From assembly GCA_016195815.1 (NCBI GenBank), contig JACPYX010000001.1, positions 109,955 through 173,954 of the forward strand: a stretch of DNA of 64,000 nucleotides. Direction: 5' to 3'. The translations under genes were made by a program, and so were the position numbers. Source of the stretch: Chloroflexota bacterium. GTDB taxonomy: Bacteria; Chloroflexota; Anaerolineae; Anaerolineales; Villigracilaceae. This document shows, piece by piece, positions 21,818-62,390 of this stretch. Below the pieces are notes generated by a model. That model did no database searches, was not told the origin of the DNA, and saw only the letters and a list, made by a program, of their open reading frames with translations. The stretch's first letter is position 1; the number at the start of each line of letters is the position of its first letter.

Positions 21818-22150
21818 AAAACCTCCCGTCCACACAATGGGACGGGAGGCGCTTATGCGTCCCGCGGTACCACCCAAGTTGACTCACATGAGTCCACTTT
21901 GCGCCGACGATGATCGGCCTCCCGCGTAACGCTGGGATTGCGGCTCAAACTACTTTGCAACGCAAGATATTATCTTGCCCTGTGTTCACCCGAGCGGCTC
22001 GAGAGGGAACTTCGATTGGCTTGTGCCGGGCGCAAGTTCCAACTTTACTCTTGCGCTTCTCTGGCGGCGTCCACCGATCTACTTTCCTCTGTCACTGCCT
22101 TTGTATAGGCTCGCCTGTTGGCTCTTATTATCTGCAAAAACATTGCGCTG
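21818..22150 (-). promoter_or_regulatory. T-box leader controlling pheST
   Basis: Minus strand contains AACTTGGGTGGTACCGCGGGACGC (T-box core GGGTGGTACCGCG, 21863-21875) followed by terminator CCTCCCGTCC...GGACGGGAGG and a T-tract (21818-21849), upstream of pheS. Confidence 0.93.
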
Positions 22151-49224: not shown

Positions 49225-49468
49225 GGGTCTCCTGAAATTTATGTCCGGAAAGGAACATCAAGGTCTATCTTACTTGATCTTACCTTATTGTAGATCGCCG
49301 TTCAACCTGCCGTCCCATTCCATTTTGGGCAAACTCAGAGTGATTGGAGGATAAAGACATCATTCACTTTAGTTCTTACATAATTAATTGTCTTGGTGAG
49401 CGCGAGTTGTTGCGCGCGTTTCCAGGGATAAAGTTAATTTATTTGTTTCCGATTGGGCAGTCTTCCCC

Positions 49469-49496
49469 TTGACTTATTTTTGAATGCGCATATAAT
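49469..49496 (+). promoter_or_regulatory. Predicted promoter of the ilv-leu operon
   Basis: TTGACT - 16 nt - TATAAT. Confidence 0.65.
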
Positions 49497-49515
49497 CCAG
49501 CGAAATCTTCAAGCC

Positions 49516-49617
49516 ATGAATACAATCTTCACTCTTTCCCTTATTGTCGTCATTCTTGCGGTCCTTATTATTAAGGACCTGTTTGAGTTTGGGATGGCAA
49601 CGGTGAAGGTGAAGTAA
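49516..49617 (+). CDS. Putative ilv operon leader peptide, 33 aa
   Basis: ATG AAT ACA ATC TTC ACT CTT TCC CTT ATT GTC GTC ATT CTT GCG GTC CTT ATT ATT AAG ... TAA = [33 protein letters not shown]; 10 of 11 residues from L9 to I19 are I/L/V. Confidence 0.65.
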
Positions 49618-49640
49618 GCGTAACGCACACCATAAACGTA

Positions 49641-49672
49641 GAGAGCCGCCCAAACAGGCGGCTCTCTTTTTT
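49641..49672 (+). terminator. Attenuator terminator upstream of ilvD
   Basis: GAGAGCCGCC (49641-49650) CAAACA GGCGGCTCTC (49657-49666) TTTTTTT; 10-bp perfect stem located before ilvD. Confidence 0.88.
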
Positions 49673-49705
49673 TACCTAATCCACCTCGGAAGAGAAAAGA
49701 GAGCC

Positions 49706-51373
49706 ATGCGATCAGATACCGTCAAGCAAGGTTTTGAGAAAGCCCCCCATCGAGCATTATTGCGCGCTGCCGGCGTAAGGGAAGAAGATATGGCGAAACC
49801 ATTCGTGGCAATCGTCAATTCATATGTTGACATTGTGCCCGGGCATGTGCATTTGCAGGAGTTTAGCAAACAGATAAAAGAAGCTGTTCGGGCGGCAGGC
49901 GGTGTGCCATTTGAATTCAATACGATAGGCGTTGACGATGGCATCGCGATGGGACACTTGGGGATGAAGTACTCGCTTCCTTCGCGGGAACTGATAGCGG
50001 ATTCCGTTGAGACGATGATCGAAGCCCATCGCTTCGACGCGATGGTGTGCATCCCCAATTGTGACAAGATCGTGCCGGGCATGTTGATGGCCGCCATGCG
50101 TGTCAATATCCCGACGATCTTCATCTCAGGCGGGCCGATGGCCGCGGGCAGGACGCCCGAAGGCGAAACGATTGATTTGATCTCTGTGTTCGAAGGCGTG
50201 GGGGCTTTTCAAGCCGGAAAGATTGACGAAAAGCGACTGACAACTTTGGAAAGATTTGCCTGCCCATCGTGCGGATCTTGTTCGGGCATGTTCACGGCCA
50301 ACAGTATGAACTGTTTGATGGAAGTCATCGGGCTGGCGTTGCCGTATAACGGCTCCGCGCTGGCGAAAACAGCAGAGCGCGATGCGCTGGCAAAAACAGC
50401 CGCGGCGCAGATCATGACTTTGTTCGAGCGCGGCATCAAGCCGCGCGATATTGTCACCGCCGATGCGATTGACGATGCGTTCGCCCTGGACATGGCGATG
50501 GGCGGCTCGACCAACACGGTTTTGCACACGCTGGCCCTGGCGCATGAAGCCGGCGTGGAATATTCACTGGAACGCATCAACAGCGTAGCGGAACGTGTGC
50601 CGCATATCTGCAAAGTTTCCCCGGCTGGCAAGTGGCACATGGAAGATGTCCATCGCGCGGGCGGGATTCCCGCCATCTTGAACGAAGTCCAGCGCGGGAC
50701 GCAGATGCTGCACTTCGACCGAATGACCGTCAGCGGCATGACGTTGGGAGAATCGATCAAGGGCGCGCAAATCAAAGAGGAGGATGTCATCCGCCGTTAC
50801 GATAATGCCCATTCGAAGCGCGGAGGATTGGCGGTTTTATTTGGCAATCTCGCGCCCAAAGGTGCGGTGGTCAAGGTTGGAGGCGTGAGTGCGGCGATGA
50901 TGAAGTTCGCCGGGCCGGCGGTCATTTTTGAATCGCAGGAAGAATCAATGGCGGGAATTCTCGGCGGCAAGGTCAAGGCCGGGGATGTGGTAGTTGTCCG
51001 CTATGAGGGGCCAAAGGGCGGGCCGGGGATGCAGGAGATGCTCTCGCCGACAAGTGCCATCATGGGCATGGGGCTGGGCGACAAAGTCGCGCTCATCACG
51101 GATGGCCGTTTTAGCGGAGGCACGCGCGGGGCGTGTATCGGCCACGTTTCACCTGAAGCCGCTGCGGGCGGGCCGATTGGCGCACTCAAGGCCGGGGACG
51201 TGATCGAAATTGATTTAGCGGAACGCAGGCTCGAGGTCCGTTTGAGCGAGGCGGAAATTCGTCAACGCTTGAGGGAACTGCCTCCGTTCCGGCCTAATGT
51301 CGAAAGCAAATGGCTCAAACGTTATTCACATTTTGTGACCAGCGCAGATACCGGCGCAGTTTTGGAATCTTAG
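49706..51373 (+). CDS. ilvD: Dihydroxy-acid dehydratase
   Basis: [63 protein letters not shown]. Confidence 0.97.
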
Positions 51374-51394: not shown

Positions 51395-53110
51395 ATGAAA
51401 AGAACCGGCGCCCAAATTGTTTGGGAATGTTTGGTGAAGGAAGGGGTGCAGGTCGTATTCGGTTATCCGGGCGGCGCGAACCTGCCGATCTACGATGCCA
51501 TGCGCGCTTATCCGGGTATTCATCATGTTCTGCCGCGGCATGAGCAGGGCGGCGCACACATGGCGGATGGATATGCGCGTGTGAGCGGCAAGGTCGGTGT
51601 TGCAATGGGAACGTCGGGGCCGGGCGCGACGAATCTTGTGACGGGCATTGCCACCGCGCAAATGGACTCTATCCCGATGGTCTTCATCACGGGACAGGTT
51701 TCCAGCAAGCTGATCGGCTACGACGCCTTTCAGGAAACAGACGTGACCGGCATCACGCTCCCGATCACCAAACATAATTATCTCGTGACGGATGTGAACG
51801 ACATCATGCCCGCACTGCGCGAAGCGTTTTACGTGGCGCGTTCGGGCCGTCCCGGCCCGGTTCTGGTGGACATTACGAAGGATGCCCAGCAGGCCGTGGT
51901 TGAGAATTGGCAATACGATGCCAGCCCGATCCGCTTGAAGGGCTATCGTCCCGATCTGCGTCCGGCTTCAGCCAGCCTGCAAAAAGCCATTGAACTGATC
52001 AACTCTGCCAGTCGTCCGTTGATCCTGGCCGGCCATGGCGTTTTGATGAGCAATGCCATGCAAGAGCTGCGCGGCTTTGCCGAGAAAGCCAATGCGCCAG
52101 TGGCGGTCACTTTGCTGGGCATCGGCGCACTGCCTGCCAGCCATCCGCTCAATCTGGGCATGATGGGTATGCACGGTGAGACCTGGGTTAATCATGCCGT
52201 CCAGGAAGCCGATCTATTGCTGGCTTTTGGAATGCGCTTCGATGACCGCGTGACCGGCAATTTAAAAACGTACGCGCCGAACGCGAAAAAGATACATATC
52301 GAAATTGATCCGTCCGAGATCAATAAGAACGTCAAAGTGGATGTGAGCCTGGTCGGTGATCTGAAGGATATTTTGCGGCAGGTTAATCCATTGGTGAAGC
52401 CGGGCGAGCGCGCGGAGTGGCTGAATCACATTGCCGATATGAAAGGCGATAGCGCGGTGCGTGATATTCAAAACCTGCCCGATAACGGGCATCTCTATGC
52501 GGCGCATGTCATCAACGATCTGTGGCGTTTCACCGGCAGGGACACCGTCATCACCACCGATGTGGGACAGCATCAGATGTGGGCCGCGCAATATTTTCGT
52601 ATGGATAAACCGCATCGCTGGGTGACTTCGGGCGGGCTCGGGACAATGGGCTTCGGTCTCCCCGCTGCCATCGGCGCAAAATTCGCCAGCCCTCAGAGCG
52701 AAGTGTGGACCGTGGTCGGCGACGGCGGTTTCCAGATGACCATGCCTGAGTTATGCACTGCGGCGCAGGAAGGCATCAAGGTGAATGTCGCCATCATCAA
52801 CAATGGTTTTCTTGGCATGGTGCGCCAGTGGCAGGAATTTTTCTACGACAAAAATTATGAGTCCACGCCGATGAAAAGCCCGGACTTTGTAAAGATCGCC
52901 GAAGCCAATGGCTTAAAAGGCATCCGTGTAACGGAGCGTTCACAGGTCGAAGCCGCGATCCGTGAAGCGCAGGCGGCCGACGGCACAGTCGTTATTGATT
53001 TCCGTGTGGAGCAGGAAGATTCCGTGTATCCGATGGTTCCTGCGGGCGCAGATTTACATGCCATGATCCAACGTCCCAGTGCGTTGGTGGAAACCCCGCA
53101 GGATGTTTAG
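51395..53110 (+). CDS. ilvB: Acetolactate synthase large subunit
   Basis: GYPGGANLPIYDAMRAYPGIHHVLPRHEQGGAHMADGYAR; TPP motif GDGGFQMTMPEL...INNGFLGMVRQWQE. Confidence 0.97.
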   Translation: MKRTGAQIVWECLVKEGVQVVFGYPGGANLPIYDAMRAYPGIHHVLPRHEQGGAHMADGYARVSGKVGVAMGTSGPGATNLVTGIATAQMDSIPMVFITGQVSSKLIGYDAFQETDVTGITLPITKHNYLVTDVNDIMPALREAFYVARSGRPGPVLVDITKDAQQAVVENWQYDASPIRLKGYRPDLRPASASLQKAIELINSASRPLILAGHGVLMSNAMQELRGFAEKANAPVAVTLLGIGALPASHPLNLGMMGMHGETWVNHAVQEADLLLAFGMRFDDRVTGNLKTYAPNAKKIHIEIDPSEINKNVKVDVSLVGDLKDILRQVNPLVKPGERAEWLNHIADMKGDSAVRDIQNLPDNGHLYAAHVINDLWRFTGRDTVITTDVGQHQMWAAQYFRMDKPHRWVTSGGLGTMGFGLPAAIGAKFASPQSEVWTVVGDGGFQMTMPELCTAAQEGIKVNVAIINNGFLGMVRQWQEFFYDKNYESTPMKSPDFVKIAEANGLKGIRVTERSQVEAAIREAQAADGTVVIDFRVEQEDSVYPMVPAGADLHAMIQRPSALVETPQDV

Positions 53111-53124
53111 CAGGAAAGATAAAC

Positions 53125-53652
53125 ATGTTACATACACTTGTAATTCTCGTGGAAGATAAACCCGGTGTGTTGAACCGCGTGGCTTCTTTATTTCGCCGGC
53201 GCGCCTTCAATATCGAATCGCTGACCGTCGGCCACACACATACAGAGGGACTCTCGCGCATGACCGTGACCGTCGAAGGGGATGAGCATCACATCGAGCG
53301 CCTGACTTCGTATTTATACAAACTGGTTAATGTGATCCAGATCGAAGACCTGACCGGCAAACAAATGGTGACGCGTGATCTGGCGCTGATCAAGGTCAAC
53401 ACGGCCTCGGAGAAGCGCTCTGAAATCTTTCAAATGGTGGAAGTATTCCGCGCCCGCATTGTGGACGTGACCAGCCATTCGGTCATCGTCGAGATCACCG
53501 GCGACGGCGAAAAGATTGACGGTTTTGTAGATGTGCTCAGACCGCTCGGTATCGTCGAAATGGTGCGAACCGGCGCGATTGCAATGGAGCGCGGCAGTGA
53601 CAGCCTGATCAATACCAGCGAACTGCTCTTTGATTCGGCTGCAGTCGCTTAA
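53125..53652 (+). CDS. ilvN: Acetolactate synthase small (regulatory) subunit
   Basis: ACT domain: LVEDKPGVLNRVASLFRRRAFNIESLTVGHTHTEGLSRMT. Confidence 0.96.
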   Translation: MLHTLVILVEDKPGVLNRVASLFRRRAFNIESLTVGHTHTEGLSRMTVTVEGDEHHIERLTSYLYKLVNVIQIEDLTGKQMVTRDLALIKVNTASEKRSEIFQMVEVFRARIVDVTSHSVIVEITGDGEKIDGFVDVLRPLGIVEMVRTGAIAMERGSDSLINTSELLFDSAAVA

Positions 53653-53678
53653 CAAAAAACAAAAGGAGAGATTATCTT

Positions 53679-54731
53679 ATGGCAAAGATCAATTTTGGCG
53701 GCACGGTTGAGGAGGTCGTTACGCGCGACGAGTTTTCACTCGACAAAGCCCGCGAAGTTTTAAAGAACGAAGTCGTTGCGGTTCTGGGTTACGGAGTTCA
53801 AGGCCCGGCGCAGGCTATGAATATGCGCGATAACGGTCTCAACGTGATCGTCGGCCAACGTGCAGGGACGAAGAATTGGGACAAGGCCCTCGCCGATGGC
53901 TGGGTTCCCGGCGAGACTCTTTTCTCTGTGGAAGAAGCCGCCGAACGCGGAACGGTCATTCAATATCTTTTGTCGGATGCGGGACAGCGTTCGCAATGGC
54001 CGAAAATCGTGGAAGCTCTTAATGAAGGCGACATGCTTTATTTCTCGCATGGATTTTCCATCACTTTCAAAGATGATACGGGCGTGATTCCGCCACCGCA
54101 GGTGGACGTGGCGCTGGTCGCGCCGAAAGGTTCGGGACGCAGTGTGCGCACGAATTTCCTGGATGGTTCAGGTATCAATGCCAGCTTCGCTGTTCATCAG
54201 GATGCAACTGGCAAGGCTTATGAACGCACGATCGCGTTAGGCATCGCCATCGGCGCGGGATATTTATTCCCGACCACGTTTGAAAAAGAAGTTTATTCCG
54301 ACCTGACAGGCGAGCGCGGCGTTTTGATGGGCGCGTTGGCCGGTGTGATGGAGGCGCAATACAACACATTGCGTTCGCATGGACACTCCCCGTCCGAGGC
54401 CTTTAATGAAACAGTTGAGGAACTCACGCAATCACTGATTCGCCTCGTCGGACAGAACGGCATGGATTGGATGTATGCCAACTGCTCGACCACCGCCCAA
54501 CGCGGCGCGCTGGATTGGAAGAATAAATTCCGCGAGGCGGTGGCTCCTGTCTTCAGCGATCTTTATCAAAGCGTGCTGACCGGCAACGAAGCCCGCATCA
54601 CGCTTGAAGCCAACAGCCGGCCTGATTACCGCGAAAAGCTGGATAAGGAATTAGCCGCCATACGCGATTCTGAAATGTGGCAGGCCGGCGCGGCGGTGCG
54701 TTCGTTGAGGCCGGAGAATTGGAAGAAATAG
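53679..54731 (+). CDS. ilvC: Ketol-acid reductoisomerase
   Basis: VAVLGYGVQGPAQAMNMRDNGLNVIVGQR; LYFSHGFSITFKDDTGVIPP; DLTGERGVLMGALAGVMEAQY. Confidence 0.97.
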   Translation: MAKINFGGTVEEVVTRDEFSLDKAREVLKNEVVAVLGYGVQGPAQAMNMRDNGLNVIVGQRAGTKNWDKALADGWVPGETLFSVEEAAERGTVIQYLLSDAGQRSQWPKIVEALNEGDMLYFSHGFSITFKDDTGVIPPPQVDVALVAPKGSGRSVRTNFLDGSGINASFAVHQDATGKAYERTIALGIAIGAGYLFPTTFEKEVYSDLTGERGVLMGALAGVMEAQYNTLRSHGHSPSEAFNETVEELTQSLIRLVGQNGMDWMYANCSTTAQRGALDWKNKFREAVAPVFSDLYQSVLTGNEARITLEANSRPDYREKLDKELAAIRDSEMWQAGAAVRSLRPENWKK

Positions 54732-54829
54732 CAAATAGTGAGCAGAGAGTAGTGAGTAATTACTGATCATCCAACCTCTAATTATCTAATCTCTAACCAT
54801 CCAGTCTCTTTCCTTGAAAGGAAGACTCT

Positions 54830-56470
54830 ATGTCAATTACCAACTATGTAAAGATTTTCGATACCACTTTGCGCGACGGCGAGCAATCCCCGGGCGCCAC
54901 GATGACCTCCGCTGAAAAACTGGAAGTGGCGCGTTCGCTGGCGCGCATGGGCGTTGACATTATCGAAGCCGGATTCCCCGCCGCTTCACCGGACGATCTC
55001 GAAGCTGTCAGGCGGATTGCGGTCGAAGTGGGCAATCCGCCCAAGGGTGAGCCCGATGCGGGAGTCCCGGTTATCACCGGCCTGGCGCGCGCCAACAAAT
55101 CCGATATTGATAAAGCCTGGGAAGCCATTCAGGACGCGCAGAAACCGCGCATCCACACTTTTTTGGCGACATCTGAAATTCACATGAAGCACAAATTAAA
55201 AATGGATGCGGAGGAAGTGATCCAGCGCGTTTCAGAAATGGTGGCGTACGCGCGCACGCTGTGCGCCGACGTGGAGTTTTCTCCGGAAGATGCCGGACGC
55301 TCTGATCCGGAATTTTTGTATGTGGTGTTGGGCGAAGCCATCAAATCCGGCGCGACCACGTTGAACATTCCCGATACAGTGGGGTACACCACCCCCGATG
55401 AATTTTATAAATTGATTGACGGCATCATCAAGAATACGCCGGGCATGAGTGAAAATATAACCGTGTCCGTGCATTGCCACGATGACCTTGGCCTGGCGAC
55501 GGCGAATACGCTTGCTGGAATCCGCGCCGGCGCGCGCCAGGCCGAGGTGACCATCAATGGAATCGGCGAGCGCGCGGGTAACACATCGCTCGAAGAAGTG
55601 GTGATGGCGCTCAAGACGCGTCACCCGGTTTTTGGTTTGGAAACGGGAATCGAAACGAAACAACTTTTGCGCGTCAGCAGGTTGGTCAGCAATTACACGG
55701 GCATTGTCGTGCAGCCGAATAAAGCCATCGTCGGCGCGAATGCGTTCGCGCATGAAGCGGGCATTCACCAAGACGGAATGCTCAAACACCAGACCACGTA
55801 TGAGATCATGCGCCCTGAAGATGTGGGCGTCAACCAAACCACGCTGGTGATGGGCAAACATTCCGGTCGCCATGCGTTGCGCTCGCGCCTCGCCGCAATG
55901 GGACATTCACTCGACGAAGGCGAGCTGGATAAGGCCTTCGCGCGTTTCAAAGAATTGGCCGACCGCAAGAAGGTCATCACCGACGCCGATCTCGAAGCCG
56001 TCATTGCCGATGAGTTCTATCGTCCGCGCGATGTATATTATCTCGAAGGTTTGCAGGTTTCATGCGGCACGCTGGGTTTGCCCACTGCCACGGTCCGTTT
56101 GCGCGGCCCCGACCGCGCGGTTCACGTTCATGCTTCAATGGGCAGCGGCCCGGTGGACGCAACGTATAAGGCCATTGATGCCATCGTTAAGATGCCGAAC
56201 AAACTGCTGGAGTTCAACATCCACGCCATTACCGAAGGCATTGACGCTCTTGGTGAAGTCACCGTTCGCATTCAAAGCGGCAATGGCGATAGCACAATGG
56301 ACGCGCAGAAAGAAATTGAGTTCTCGCGCGTCTACGGCGGTCACGGCGCAGATATGGACATCATCGTCGCCAGCGCCAGGGCGTATATCAACGCCATCAA
56401 CAAATTGATCATCGCCCAAACCGAAGGACTGCAAGTGGTCCAAAATAATTTTGGCGTGATGTTGGGATGA
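54830..56470 (+). CDS. leuA: 2-isopropylmalate synthase
   Basis: [66 protein letters not shown]. Confidence 0.96.
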
Positions 56471-56614
56471 AGCACAGCGCTTCATTCTTGACCGGCGGTT
56501 GATTCCAGCCAATGAGCATTTAACTCCATCCCAACAGAATCCAGCCAACCGCAAAGAAAGATTTTCCTGGCGTTCTACTTATTCCTGGATGTTCAAAAAA
56601 GGTTTTTATAAACA

Positions 56615-58024
56615 ATGCCCAAAACGCTCTTTCAAAAAATCTGGGACTCGCACGTTGTTACTGAACAACCCGATTCCCCGGCTGTCCTCTACATTGACCT
56701 TCATCTTGTGCATGAAGTCACCTCGCCGCAGGCTTTCACCGGCCTGCGCCAGCGCGGACTCAAAGTCCGCCGCCCCGACAAAACCCTGGCGACGATGGAC
56801 CATTCGATTCCGACCACGCCGCTCGACGTCCCGATTGCGGACGCGCTGGCCGCCGCGCAGATCAAGCAAATGGAGACCAACGCCGCCGAATTTGGAATCA
56901 CACTGCACGGCATGAACAGTCCGCAGCGCGGCATTGTGCATGTCATCGGCCCCGAACTCGGACGCACCCAGCCGGGCATGACCATCGTGTGCGGCGATAG
57001 TCACACTGCCACGCACGGCGCGTTCGGTGCATTGGCTTTTGGTATCGGCACGTCCGAAGTGGAGCATGTGCTTGCCACGCAATGCCTGTTACAGCGCAAA
57101 CCTAAAACGTATGAAGTCCGTGTAAATGGAAAAATATCCAAAGGCGTTTCGGCCAAAGATATTATTCTCGCGCTCATCGCCAGGATCGGCGTTGGCGGGG
57201 GAACGGGACATGTCTTTGAATTCACCGGCGAAGCCATCCGCGGCCTGACGATGGAACAACGCATGACGATCTGCAATATGTCCATCGAAGGCGGCGCGCG
57301 CGCCGGCATGATCGCGCCCGACGACAATACGTTTGAATATCTGGCGGGCCGCGAATTTTCTCCGAAGAACGAAGAATGGGACAAGGCGGTTGCGCGCTGG
57401 CAACAATTGCCAAGTGATGAAGGCGCAACTTATGATAAGTCCATCACGCTGAATGCTTTTGAAATCGAGCCGATGATCACCTACGGCACAAATCCCGGCA
57501 TGGGCATGAAGATCACGGATCGAGTTCCGACCGCCGAGTCTTTTTCCGACGCTTCGCAAAAAGCCGCATTTGAAAAAGCATTAACTTACATGGGGCTTCA
57601 ACCCGGACAATCTTTGCTCGGCCAAAAAGTGGATGTGGTCTTCATCGGTTCATGCACAAACTCGCGTATTTCTGATCTGCGTTTGGCCGCTTCAATGCTC
57701 AAAGGCCGCAAAGTTTCTGAAAGCACGCGCGTGATGGTCGTGCCCGGTTCACAGGATGTCAAAAAACAAGCCGAGCAGGAAGGCCTTGATAAAATCTTCA
57801 AAGAATCCGGCGCGGAATGGCGCGAAGCCGGATGCAGTATGTGTATCGCGATGAACGGCGATGAATTGAAGCCCGGACAATACGCCGTCTCTACCAGCAA
57901 TCGCAACTTTGAGGGCCGTCAGGGAAAAGGCGGGCGAACATTTTTGGCGAGTCCGTTAACTGCCGCGGCAAGCGCGATTTCCGGCGCGGTCTCTGATCCG
58001 CGCGCAATACTCAATAATCTTTAA
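56615..58024 (+). CDS. leuC: 3-isopropylmalate dehydratase large subunit
   Basis: [68 protein letters not shown]. Confidence 0.97.
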
Positions 58025-58076
58025 TTTGATAATCGAGTGTCGAACATCCAATATCGAATTATCTGAAACGGAACCT

Positions 58077-58658
58077 ATGGCTCAATTTACAACCCTTACT
58101 TCCCGCATACTCCCTCTGCCCGTCAACGACATTGATACGGACCAGATCATCCCGGCGCGTTTCCTCAAAGCCACCGACAAAAAGGGCATGGGCGATAATC
58201 TCTTCGCCGATTGGCGCTACAACCCGGACGGCTCGCCAAAGCCGGGCTTTGTTCTGAACAAGCCCGAGTCAAAGGGCGCGCAAATTTTATTAGCCGGTGA
58301 CAACTTCGGCTGTGGTTCGAGCCGCGAGCACGCTCCCTGGGCGCTGATAGGTTTTGGATTCCATGCCGTTATCAGCACATCCTTCGCCGATATTTTCCGC
58401 AATAACGCCTTGAAGAACGGCCTCATCCCCATCATCGTGGATGAAGCCACGCACAAAATGTTATTCGATCTGGTCGAAGAAATTCCCAATGCCGAATTCA
58501 CGGTTGATCTCGCCACGCAATCGCTTTTGTTCCCAAACGGCTCTGTGAATTTCCCGATTGACCCATTCAACAAAACCTGCCTGCTCAACGGCGTGGATGA
58601 ACTTGGCTACATTATGGGATTTGAAAAACAAATCAGTGTGTTTGAGTCAAGAGCGTAG
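58077..58658 (+). CDS. leuD: 3-isopropylmalate dehydratase small subunit
   Basis: LPVNDIDTDQIIPARFLK; GDNFGCGSSREHAPWALIGFG. Confidence 0.96.
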   Translation: MAQFTTLTSRILPLPVNDIDTDQIIPARFLKATDKKGMGDNLFADWRYNPDGSPKPGFVLNKPESKGAQILLAGDNFGCGSSREHAPWALIGFGFHAVISTSFADIFRNNALKNGLIPIIVDEATHKMLFDLVEEIPNAEFTVDLATQSLLFPNGSVNFPIDPFNKTCLLNGVDELGYIMGFEKQISVFESRA

Positions 58659-58665
58659 TCCGTAA

Positions 58666-58715
58666 TTCGTAATGCGTAAAAAGATTCTTACGGATTACAT
58701 ATCACGCATTACGAA
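58666..58715. repeat. Inverted repeat TTCGTAATGCGT ... ACGCATTACGAA
   Basis: 12-bp arms 58666-58677 and 58704-58715; same family as 5952-6022. Confidence 0.85.
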
Positions 58716-58736
58716 ATTCACAACACGGAATAACTT

Positions 58737-60293
58737 ATGGCCATCATCCAAATCTACGACACAACTTTGCGCGACGGCACGCAGTCTGAAGGCTTTACGC
58801 TTTCGGCCAATGACAAGGTCCGCATCGCACAGCGGCTCGACGATCTCGGCGTGGCCTTCATCGAAGGCGGCTGGCCGGGTTCGAATCCGAAAGACGTTGA
58901 GTTCTTCGAGCGCGCCCGCGACATGCAATGGAACAATGCGCTTATCGCGGCATTCGGTTCGACGTGCCGCGTCAAAGGAGGCCCCGAAGACGACGCCAAC
59001 ATCAAAGCGCTGCTCGATTCGCACACGCCCGTCTGCACCATCTTTGGCAAGACCTGGACCCTTCACGTCAGGGAAGTTTTGCAGACCACGCCCGAAGATA
59101 ATCTCCGCATCATCGAGCAATCGGTCGCGTATCTTAAATCAAATAACAAACGCGTCATCTATGACGCCGAACATTTTTTCGACGGGTACAAAGCGGATTC
59201 ATCCTACGCACTCGAGACTCTGCAAGCCGCTATTCGCGGCGGTGCGGAGACGGTCGTTTTATGCGATACCAACGGCGGGACCTTGCCCTGGGAATTGGAA
59301 CGCATCATTCGGGACCTGAAGCCTGTTCTCGCTCATCCATTCGGAATCCATACTCACAACGATTCCGAGTGCGCCGTGATCAATTCGCTGGCCGCTGTCC
59401 GCGAGGGCGCAATGCAGGTTCAAGGCACGATCAACGGAGTTGGCGAACGCTGCGGAAATGCCAATTTGATTTCCATCATCGCCGACCTTGAACTCAAAAT
59501 GGGCTGTCAATGCCTGCCCAAAGGAAACATTGGCAAGTTGTACGATCTTTCGCATTTCGTGGCGGAGGTCGCCAATATCAGCCCCGATGAACATTTGCCG
59601 TTCGTCGGCAAATCCGCGTTCGCACACAAAGGCGGCGTGCACGTCGCCGCGATGAGACGCAGCGCACAATCTTATCAACACATCGAGCCGGAAAAAGTCG
59701 GCAACAAAATGCGCGTGGTGGTCTCTGATCTTTCGGGCCGCGGCAATTTATTAAGCAAGGCTGAAGAACACGGCGTTGAAGTGGATGGCGAAGAAGTGCT
59801 TGGCGTGCTTAACGACATCAAGGAACTCGAGGCACGCGGCTTTTCATTTGAAGCCGCCGAAGCCTCCGTGACCATGATGTTGAAGCGGCAGGAATATAGC
59901 TACAAGGCGCCCTTTGAATTGATTGATTTTTTTGTCAATGTCGAGCATCGTCAGGGGCGCGGCATCTTCGCCGAAGCAATGGTCAAAGTGCGCGTGCAAG
60001 GCGAACTGCTTCACACTGCGGCGGAAGGTAACGGCCCTGTTAACGCAATGGACAATGCTTTGCGAAAGGCCCTGGTTGGTTATTATCCCCAAATCGCCCA
60101 ATTCCATTTGTCCGATTACAAAGTCCGCATCCTGGATTCGGATCACGGCACTGAAGCCATCACGCGCGTATTGATTGACACGCGTAATAACGCCAGCCGC
60201 TGGAGCACCGTCGGCGCAAGCACGAATATCATCGAAGCGTCGTGGCGCGCGCTGGCGGACTCAGTGGAATACGGTTTGATGGTGGCACATTAA
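58737..60293 (+). CDS. cimA: (R)-citramalate synthase (LeuA-like)
   Basis: IYDTTLRDGTQSEGFTLSANDKVRIAQRLDDLGVAFIEGGWPGSNPKD; TFGKTW-like IFGKTWTLHV; HNDSECAVINSLAAVREGAMQVQGTINGVGERCGN. Confidence 0.93.
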   Translation: MAIIQIYDTTLRDGTQSEGFTLSANDKVRIAQRLDDLGVAFIEGGWPGSNPKDVEFFERARDMQWNNALIAAFGSTCRVKGGPEDDANIKALLDSHTPVCTIFGKTWTLHVREVLQTTPEDNLRIIEQSVAYLKSNNKRVIYDAEHFFDGYKADSSYALETLQAAIRGGAETVVLCDTNGGTLPWELERIIRDLKPVLAHPFGIHTHNDSECAVINSLAAVREGAMQVQGTINGVGERCGNANLISIIADLELKMGCQCLPKGNIGKLYDLSHFVAEVANISPDEHLPFVGKSAFAHKGGVHVAAMRRSAQSYQHIEPEKVGNKMRVVVSDLSGRGNLLSKAEEHGVEVDGEEVLGVLNDIKELEARGFSFEAAEASVTMMLKRQEYSYKAPFELIDFFVNVEHRQGRGIFAEAMVKVRVQGELLHTAAEGNGPVNAMDNALRKALVGYYPQIAQFHLSDYKVRILDSDHGTEAITRVLIDTRNNASRWSTVGASTNIIEASWRALADSVEYGLMVAH

Positions 60294-60304
60294 ATAAAAT
60301 CCAA

Positions 60305-60382
60305 TGTCATTGCGAGGGCGTTTTTTGCCCGAAGCAATCCCTTCGGAGTTTGGGAGATTGCTTCGCTTCGCCCGCAATGACA
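60305..60382. repeat. Nested palindromic repeat, TGTCATTGCGAG.../...GCAATGACA with inner GAAGCAATC/GATTGCTTC
   Basis: Outer arm identical to 3035-3046; inner 9-bp arms at 60331-60339 and 60356-60364. Confidence 0.85.
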
Positions 60383-60398
60383 TCAACAAGGAAAACAC

Positions 60399-61457
60399 AT
60401 GAATTTCAAAATAACCCTCCTCCCCGGCGACGGCATCGGTCCCGAAGTGGTCGCCGAGGCTGTCCGCGTGCTGGATGCCATTGCCAGTAAGCACGGACAT
60501 TCATTCAAATTTACCGAACGATTGATGGGCGGCTGTTCGATTGATAAATTCGGTTCGTCGCTCACAGATGAAACTCTTGCCGATTGCAAATCTGCAGACG
60601 CGGTTTTGCTCGGCGCAGTCGGCGGCCCAAAGTGGGACGACCCGTCCGCGAAGGACCGCCCCGAACGCGGATTGCTTGCGTTGCGAAAAGGCCTCGGCGT
60701 GTTCGCGAATCTTCGTCCTGTGAAAGCGCATTCGGCGCTGATGGAATGGTCGCCGCTCAAGCCGGAGAAACTCAAGGGCGTGGATATCATGGTCGTGCGC
60801 GAACTGACGGGCGGTTTATATTTTGGCTGGCCGAAGGGACGCGATGTCAAAGATGGCCGCGAACGCGCGGTGGATACGCTCGAATATTACGATTACGAAG
60901 TCAAACGCGTGATGGAGCTTGCATTTAAATTGGCGAAAGGCAGGAAGAAAAAAGTTGCCTCAGTGGATAAAGCCAACGTCCTGGAATCATCCCGCTTATG
61001 GCGGCAGATTGCGGCTCAAACCGGAAAAGAGAATCCCGGCATCGAACTTGAACACGTTTTGGTGGATACCGCTTCGATGAAACTGATAACTTCACCTGCA
61101 TCGTTTGACGTGGTCGTCACCGAAAACATGTTCGGCGATATTCTCACAGACGAGGCGTCTGTGTTGGCGGGTTCTATGGGGATGTTGCCGTCGGCCAGTT
61201 TAGGAGAGTCCGGCGCGGGGTTGTTCGAGCCGGTGCATGGGTCCGCACCGGATATTGCAGGCAGGGGAATCGCAAATCCGATTGGCGCGATTCTTTCGTC
61301 GGCAATGATGCTGCGCCATTCATTCAAACTCGAGGCCGAAGCCGCGTCCATTGAAAAGGCCGTGGACGATGTGATAACATCCGGCGCGCGTACTGCCGAC
61401 ATTGGCGGCAAGTTAACGACCCGTCAAATGACGGATGAAATCATCAAAAGAATGTAG
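60399..61457 (+). CDS. leuB: 3-isopropylmalate dehydrogenase
   Basis: [65 protein letters not shown]. Confidence 0.96.
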
Positions 61458-61469
61458 AGGAAAATTATC

Positions 61470-62390
61470 ATGGGCATGGAATCGAAGTTCATCTGGATGA
61501 ACGGTGAAATGGTGCCGTTCGAAAAAGCAACCCTGCATTTTCTCACGCCCGCACTGCATTATGGCGCGGCAGTGTTCGAGGGAATTCGAGCATATAACAC
61601 GGCGAAAGGGCCGGCGGTCTTTCGCTTGAATGAACATACCGAGCGCTTGTTCGACTCGGCGCGCGTGCTTGGCTTTCGTGAATTCCCGTGGACGGCGGCG
61701 CAGGTGAGCGCGGCTGTCAAGCAGACTGTGAAGGCGAACGGTTTTGCCGATTGCTACATCCGCCCGCTTCTGTACCTGGACGGCGGCGGCTGGAACCTGA
61801 ACGTGGATTTTGGCAAGCCCAGCCTGGCGATTGCTGTGTGGGAATGGGCGAACTATCTCGGCGAGGAAGCGCTCGCAAAAGGGATTCGCGCCAACATCTC
61901 GTCGTTCACGCGCCATCATCCGAATGTTTCAATGACCAAGGCCAAGATCGCAGGCAACTATGTCAACAGCATTCTCGCCAAAACCGAGTCGCAGCGGCTT
62001 GGATTTGAAGAAGCCATCATGCTTGATCCGCAGGGATACATTGCGGAATGCACCGGCGAGAATCTATTCCTGGTGCGCGATGGAAAAGTCATCACGCCGT
62101 CCACTGCGCCCGTGCTGGAAGGCATCACGCGTCACACGATTTTGACGATTGCAAAAGATTTGGGTTATGAAATTCTCGAACAACCGGTTTCCCGCGACCA
62201 GCTCTATGTTGCCGACGAAGTATTTGTGTGCGGAACGGCTGCCGAGTGCATTGGCCTGAGCGAAATTGACTTCCGCAAGATCGGCGATGGAAAATCCGGC
62301 AGGATCACGCGTGAGATTCAAAATGTGTATCACGACGCGATCCGTGGAAAGATCGCAAAATATGAGTCGTGGTGTGATTACGTTGGGTAA
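61470..62390 (+). CDS. ilvE: Branched-chain amino acid aminotransferase
   Basis: LTPALHYGAAVFEGIRAYNTAKGPAVFRLNEHTERLFDSARVL; GYIAECTGENLFLVRDGKVITP. Confidence 0.96.
   Translation: MGMESKFIWMNGEMVPFEKATLHFLTPALHYGAAVFEGIRAYNTAKGPAVFRLNEHTERLFDSARVLGFREFPWTAAQVSAAVKQTVKANGFADCYIRPLLYLDGGGWNLNVDFGKPSLAIAVWEWANYLGEEALAKGIRANISSFTRHHPNVSMTKAKIAGNYVNSILAKTESQRLGFEEAIMLDPQGYIAECTGENLFLVRDGKVITPSTAPVLEGITRHTILTIAKDLGYEILEQPVSRDQLYVADEVFVCGTAAECIGLSEIDFRKIGDGKSGRITREIQNVYHDAIRGKIAKYESWCDYVG

Follow-up and report, generated by a model that had tools for sequence, protein, structure and literature searches.

Known Attenuators of Branched-Chain Amino Acid Operons

The ilvGMEDA and ilvBN operons of enterobacteria are preceded by attenuators that combine isoleucine, leucine and valine (I/L/V) control codons with alternative 1:2, 2:3 and 3:4 helices and a terminator before the first ilv gene. 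In S. aureus, the ilv-leu operon is long and begins with ilvD. Its attenuator peptide is leucine-rich according to the title of the paper that describes it (PMC5794164). The Corynebacterium ilvB-II motif or ilvBNC uORF comprises a short I/L/V ORF, a terminator and an antiterminator 5' of the ilv operon (PMC10272879, PMC11857589), and in other Actinobacteria the ilvB leaders likewise combine a short I/L/V-containing ORF with a terminator at that place (PMC1262725). Leader-peptide attenuation has been described for amino acid operons of Proteobacteria, Actinobacteria and some Firmicutes; a 2010 survey, which contributed the Firmicutes, knew of no case outside the other two phyla until then (PMC2965389). 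Chloroflexota are not mentioned in PMC10272879 or PMC1262725, and no ilv attenuator of this phylum was found in the open literature searched (the broad 2010 prediction survey by Lopatovskaya et al. could list some). Here we describe a leader upstream of ilvD in a stretch of 64,000 nucleotides from a Chloroflexota bacterium, which as a whole is called the window. The mechanism appears to be classical and the leader family appears to be new.

Leader and Operon in the Window

Direct reading of the sequence placed the promoter, ORF, hairpin, terminator, both antiterminator strands and the start of ilvD where an earlier sequence-only reading of this DNA had put them. The locus contains the following elements:

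49469-49496, + strand: sigma-70-type promoter, TTGACT-N16-TATAAT, matching the consensus at 11 of 12 positions
49516-49617, + strand: leader ORF of 33 codons with start and stop, without Shine-Dalgarno sequence; relatives have homologous leaders with an I/L/V run
49540-49572, + strand: control codons L9 to I19, of which 10 of 11 encode I, L or V; positional I/L/V enrichment over 95 leaders
49544-49555, + strand: region 1, the codon-run strand predicted to pair with region 2 (1:2, sequestering) in minimum-energy folds
49560-49579, + strand: hairpin P1, 8 bp with a UUAU loop, within the codon run; compensatory changes in relatives
49587-49598, + strand: region 2, putative antiterminator 5' strand; duplex covariation with region 3
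49645-49655, + strand: region 3, putative antiterminator 3' strand, overlapping the terminator 5' arm and loop; covariation with region 2
49640-49673, + strand: intrinsic terminator with an 11-bp stem, a 6-nt loop and a T run, region 4 being the 3' arm
49706-51373, + strand: ilvD, dihydroxy-acid dehydratase, first structural gene (TIGR00110, 835 bits)
51395-62390, + strand: ilvB, ilvH, ilvC, leuA, leuC, leuD, cimA, leuB and ilvE (NCBIfam equivalog matches)

The promoter ranks first among 11 promoter-like sites in the 12 kb scanned, and a promoter of the form TTGAC(G/T)-N16/17-TATAAT is kept at the same place across the window's family. P1 (GGTCCTTA-TTAT-TAAGGACC) shows double-sided changes among relatives and is a candidate RNA polymerase pause hairpin. 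Between GTTTGGGATGGC of region 2 and GCCGCCCAAAC of region 3, 11 pairs are possible, and this antiterminator takes up six of the ten bases of the terminator 5' arm. The arms of the terminator stem (49640-49650 and 49657-49667) form 11 pairs and the T run ends at 49673. The fold of the leader RNA (49503-49674) has a z-score of -6.1 relative to dinucleotide shuffles, none of 200 being equally stable. A small hairpin around the stop codon (GGTG...CACC) was dropped as a part of the leader design, since it occurs in only 16 of 43 family leaders. Downstream, ten genes follow in one run (ilvD-ilvB-ilvH-ilvC-leuA-leuC-leuD-cimA-leuB-ilvE); they make up the branched-chain pathway and their product set is isoleucine, leucine and valine.

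Like the enterobacterial ilvGMEDA and ilvBN leaders, the window leader has I/L/V codons, predicted alternative helices and a terminator before the first ilv gene. It differs from them in the placement of region 2 within the ORF, beginning some 30 nt ahead of the stop codon, in the separate hairpin P1 within the control codons, in the lack of a Shine-Dalgarno sequence combined with a very short predicted 5' UTR, and in its ilvD-first, ten-gene ilv-leu operon, with no match to any Rfam leader family. The ilvB leaders of Corynebacterium and other Actinobacteria share the I/L/V ORF and the terminator with the window leader, but belong to a different phylum and are a different RNA. The S. aureus ilv-leu operon resembles the window in having a leader peptide 5' of a long ilvD-first operon; the two are set apart here by description, the S. 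aureus peptide being leucine-rich by title (PMC5794164) whereas that of the window is mixed I/L/V. Rfam contained no family for the leader at gathering or permissive thresholds: Phe_leader (RF01859) reached 26.4 bits at the window where 55 are required, Leu_leader (RF00512) scored only at L018, with 29.7 bits against the 50 required, and the T-box (RF00230) had no match at 49400-49720.

Elsewhere in the window, a T-box leader (RF00230, 103 bits; 21835-22104, - strand) lies upstream of pheS and a SAM riboswitch (RF00162; 36698-36793, - strand) lies 5' of metH, the gene for B12-dependent methionine synthase. The genome seems to use both T-box and leader-peptide control by amino acids.

Distribution in Chloroflexota

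A DNA search of 61 genomes recovered the arrangement at 70-81% nucleotide identity in many family members, with a short I/L/V-rich ORF followed by a GC-rich terminator at nearly every inspected locus; almost all homologous leaders had the terminator. A covariance model built from 23 leader sequences matched in 89 of 250 genomes of the window's order and in 40 of 399 genomes sampled across the phylum, with matches in further families of the class and in classes beyond it; the leaders are phylogenetically related and these counts are not independent. The gene directly downstream is almost always ilvD or ilvB, and once ilvE. Named genomes with the leader include MAGs of Anaerolineales and Anaerolineae, and cultured carriers, with the leader 5' of ilvD, are Bellilinea caldifistulae, Ornatilinea apprima and Thermanaerothrix daxensis.

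Within the window's family, the leader was present in 32 of the 33 genomes with ilvD and in none of the 10 without (250-genome sample). In the single miss, L149, the leader follows the same design but is divergent (MPFNAFVLILVSLIILVLIIGIEKSPRVWVTRIALSKQ), and a terminator is present. The distribution suggests that branched-chain amino acid synthesis was repeatedly lost together with the leader. Close relatives without an ilvD match, same-genus members among them, are G002, G004, G005, G007, G010, G017, G019, G022 and others.

The leader was not found 5' of the ilvD homologs of Paenibacillus, Cohnella and other Firmicutes from the same search, and the lone weak partial match in the Firmicutes set, in L233, sits away from the position upstream of ilvD. 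Weak model matches in L119 and L121, which have neither a proper I/L/V leader nor a good antiterminator, were discarded as false.

Covariation of the Antiterminator

RNAalifold on alignment A2 recovered nothing beyond P1 and the terminator, since a single alignment cannot represent a competing helix and the subgroups are offset from each other by one base in region 3. The antiterminator was therefore tested through the energy of the duplex, by exchanging partners and by counting pairs in an anchored register. The duplex of regions 2 and 3 had a mean energy of -19.2 kcal/mol, compared with -12.0 kcal/mol when the upstream sequence was shuffled, and swapping partners between genomes weakened it to -12.9 from a native -19.3 kcal/mol (106 distinct pairs). 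An anchored 7-bp helix was canonical at 94.8% over 58 distinct versions and at 52.5% after re-dealing of partners, the register being anchored on the predicted duplex, which biases the native counts upwards; every position of this helix shows all six standard pair types. Examples are GTTTGGG-A-TGGC with GCCGCCCAAAC in the window and, at other loci, GGTTAGG-A-TGGC with GCCG-C-CCTAACC, GTTTGAGGCGGC with GCCGCCTCAAAC, TTTGGGCGGT with ACCGCCCAA and GTTTGGGAGG with CCTCCCAAAC. By these sequence comparisons the antiterminator is strongly covarying, and its formation would exclude the terminator and vice versa. The sequence-only reading had named as its comparative test that orthologous leaders keep the I/L/V run together with a covarying terminator and antiterminator, and this is what was found.

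Codon Geometry and Ribosome Position

In the 95 distinct ILV leaders, I/L/V accounts for a fraction of 0.85-0.88 of the codons lying 18-44 nt before region 2 and for 0.31 of those nearer than 18 nt, values that have to be read with the partial selection of the leader ORFs for I/L/V density in mind. A ribosome, with the footprint assumed here, extends roughly 12-15 nt ahead of its A-site codon, and therefore the drop at 18 nt would separate stalls that leave region 2 exposed from those in which it is covered. Folding of the part of the window leader left free ahead of a ribosome gave an antiterminator probability of about 0.99 with the ribosome on codons 7-20 and 0.94 on codon 21, and the antiterminator was lost from codon 22 onwards; with no ribosome it was 0.65. 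At equilibrium the complete terminator wins in every ribosome state, and the switch must therefore be kinetic, as is usual for attenuators. Codon usage in leaders from many genomes (CTT 41%, ATT 72%) differs from that in ten genes of the window (11% and 32%).

It had been proposed earlier that a ribosome stalled on the ILV codons leaves 49587-49598 free and that one at the stop codon covers it. The first part agrees with the folding, but the second does not hold: if a standard footprint is assumed, the trailing edge of a ribosome that has reached the stop codon (49615) lies near 49597, past most of region 2, which is covered while codons 22-31 are read. Termination would therefore rest on masking during passage and on later 1:2 pairing.

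Minimum-energy folds without a ribosome pair 49544-49555 with 49585-49600 around P1, and this codon-run pairing is predicted to reseal region 2 behind the ribosome, as the equivalent of the classical 1:2 helix. Region 2 paired with region 1 at a mean probability of 0.68 compared with 0.60 when the codon order was shuffled (97 leaders), and the native value was the higher one in 77 of the 97. In the window itself the probability was 0.70 native and 0.74 shuffled. The effect is modest, partly inherent in I/L/V codons and invisible in the window alone. Tuning of synonymous codon choice for 1:2 pairing found little support, as synonymous versions paired equally well in a median of about 30 of 100 cases.

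The same geometry bears on the nature of the ORF. Its I/L/V-rich stretch resembles a membrane helix, and members of the family share a conserved peptide sequence, as would be expected of a functional small membrane protein with one hydrophobic helix, in which case the terminator would merely lower operon expression constitutively. However, the peptides vary freely in length (about 21-44 aa) and in sequence outside the codon run, the I/L/V run stops at a fixed distance from an RNA element, and the C-terminal part of the peptide follows the RNA complementarity of region 2. Moreover, some loci carry Trp/Tyr-rich versions 5' of transporters, and in L135 and L137 the ORF ends before region 2. It seems very improbable that the ORF is kept as a membrane protein, and a role as a leader peptide is favored.

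Translation Start

In the window, the start codon lies about 20 nt from the -10 hexamer; the median of this distance over 90 leaders is 22 nt. With transcription starts predicted from promoter matches, the 5' UTR of the window leader would be about 13-15 nt long; some leaders from other families of the class have a distance of 13 nt and a predicted 5' UTR of about 6 nt. A Shine-Dalgarno-like tetramer precedes 18 of 118 leaders, compared with 53 of 68 ilvD starts at the same loci. As Shine-Dalgarno sequences are rare across the leaders, their absence is a conserved property and not a flaw of the window copy. The caveat raised in the sequence-only reading, that the ORF has no Shine-Dalgarno sequence and a very short 5' UTR, was correct and applies to the relatives in common. 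One may ask how, lacking a Shine-Dalgarno sequence, such a leader initiates efficiently enough to work.

A start of this kind would also suit a translation-independent RNA switch (a riboswitch, a T-box or a protein-bound antiterminator) with a fortuitous ORF, and riboswitches and T-boxes likewise use alternative antiterminator and terminator structures. Yet no Rfam family scored above its gathering threshold at the leader while a T-box and a SAM riboswitch were detected elsewhere in the window, the I/L/V-rich ORF is kept across the phylum despite nucleotide change, and the codon run is placed by ribosome geometry. We consider such a switch highly unlikely and favor one that depends on translation of the leader.

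Proposed Mechanism

What is observed at these loci comprises the sequence elements with their conservation and covariation, the geometry of the codons and the gene context, and the window leader is very probably a ribosome-mediated transcription attenuator of the classical leader-peptide type. We infer from its design that the leader ORF is translated, that ribosomes stall on it, and which kinetics and physiological response follow. RNA polymerase would start about 7 nt past the TATAAT, and a ribosome would begin translating the ORF after a very short 5' UTR. When Ile-, Leu- or Val-tRNA is scarce, the ribosome would stall on codons 9-19 and occupy region 1, so that region 2 (49587-49598) would be available for pairing with region 3 (49645-49655) once this is made. 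The 2:3 pairing would occupy the terminator 5' arm and allow transcription into ilvD and the nine genes behind it. When charged tRNAs are plentiful, the ribosome would pass, and region 2 would be covered and then resealed by the codon run. With region 2 sequestered, the 3:4 terminator could form and transcription would stop before ilvD.

The attenuator might mainly sense translation initiation or global ribosome supply, or one amino acid and not all three. All three residues occur in the run and folding cannot tell which limitation matters; in addition, with an antiterminator probability of 0.65 in the absence of a ribosome, low initiation could also give read-through. Against this, the run is rich in each of the three residues in nearly all leaders, and all three amino acids are products of the controlled operon. 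We regard such narrower or more general sensing as unlikely, and a response to all three amino acids as the preferred reading.

Variants of the Leader

Several loci carry variants of the leader, for which the positions within each locus are:

L013 1115-1444, L014 1100-1428, L015 1099-1431, L025 1267-1603, L108 520-858, and L110 (two matches): tandem leaders
L100 2201-2335: ilvE leader with 14 of 15 codons I/L/V and a weak antiterminator
L111 701-832 and L118 2201-2330: Tyr-containing leader (AYY stretch) 5' of an ECF transporter S component and its ATPase

The tandem leaders listed lie 5' of ilvD and comprise two ORFs, with one antiterminator and one terminator per ORF. At L158, L182, L206, L194 and L214, ilvD is likewise preceded by two ORFs and two model matches, and tandem duplication apparently arose more than once. 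In G031, a second leader (L100) precedes ilvE, the gene for the branched-chain aminotransferase, and the same genome has an ilvD leader; 76 of 100 shuffles were as good as the L100 antiterminator. In one family of the order, Trp/Tyr/Phe-rich leaders lie 5' of LivJ/LivH-like ABC transporter genes (L063, L064, L099, L101-L103), and ilvD is missing from most genomes with these ABC-transporter leaders. Their codons predict regulation by aromatic amino acids.

It is possible, and we propose it tentatively, that one frame of P1, regions 2 and 3 and terminator acts as a recodable cassette throughout Chloroflexota, with I/L/V codons for ilvD, ilvB and ilvE, Trp/Tyr/Phe codons for transporters, and some copies in tandem. 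If true, the control codons would predict the amino acid sensed by the regulation of a transporter. For the phylum at large, a covarying attenuator that keeps ribosome-spacing geometry would amount to strong sequence evidence that transcription and translation are closely coupled in Chloroflexota. It would likewise provide regulatory annotation for a large number of uncultured genomes and hint at the specificity of transporters.
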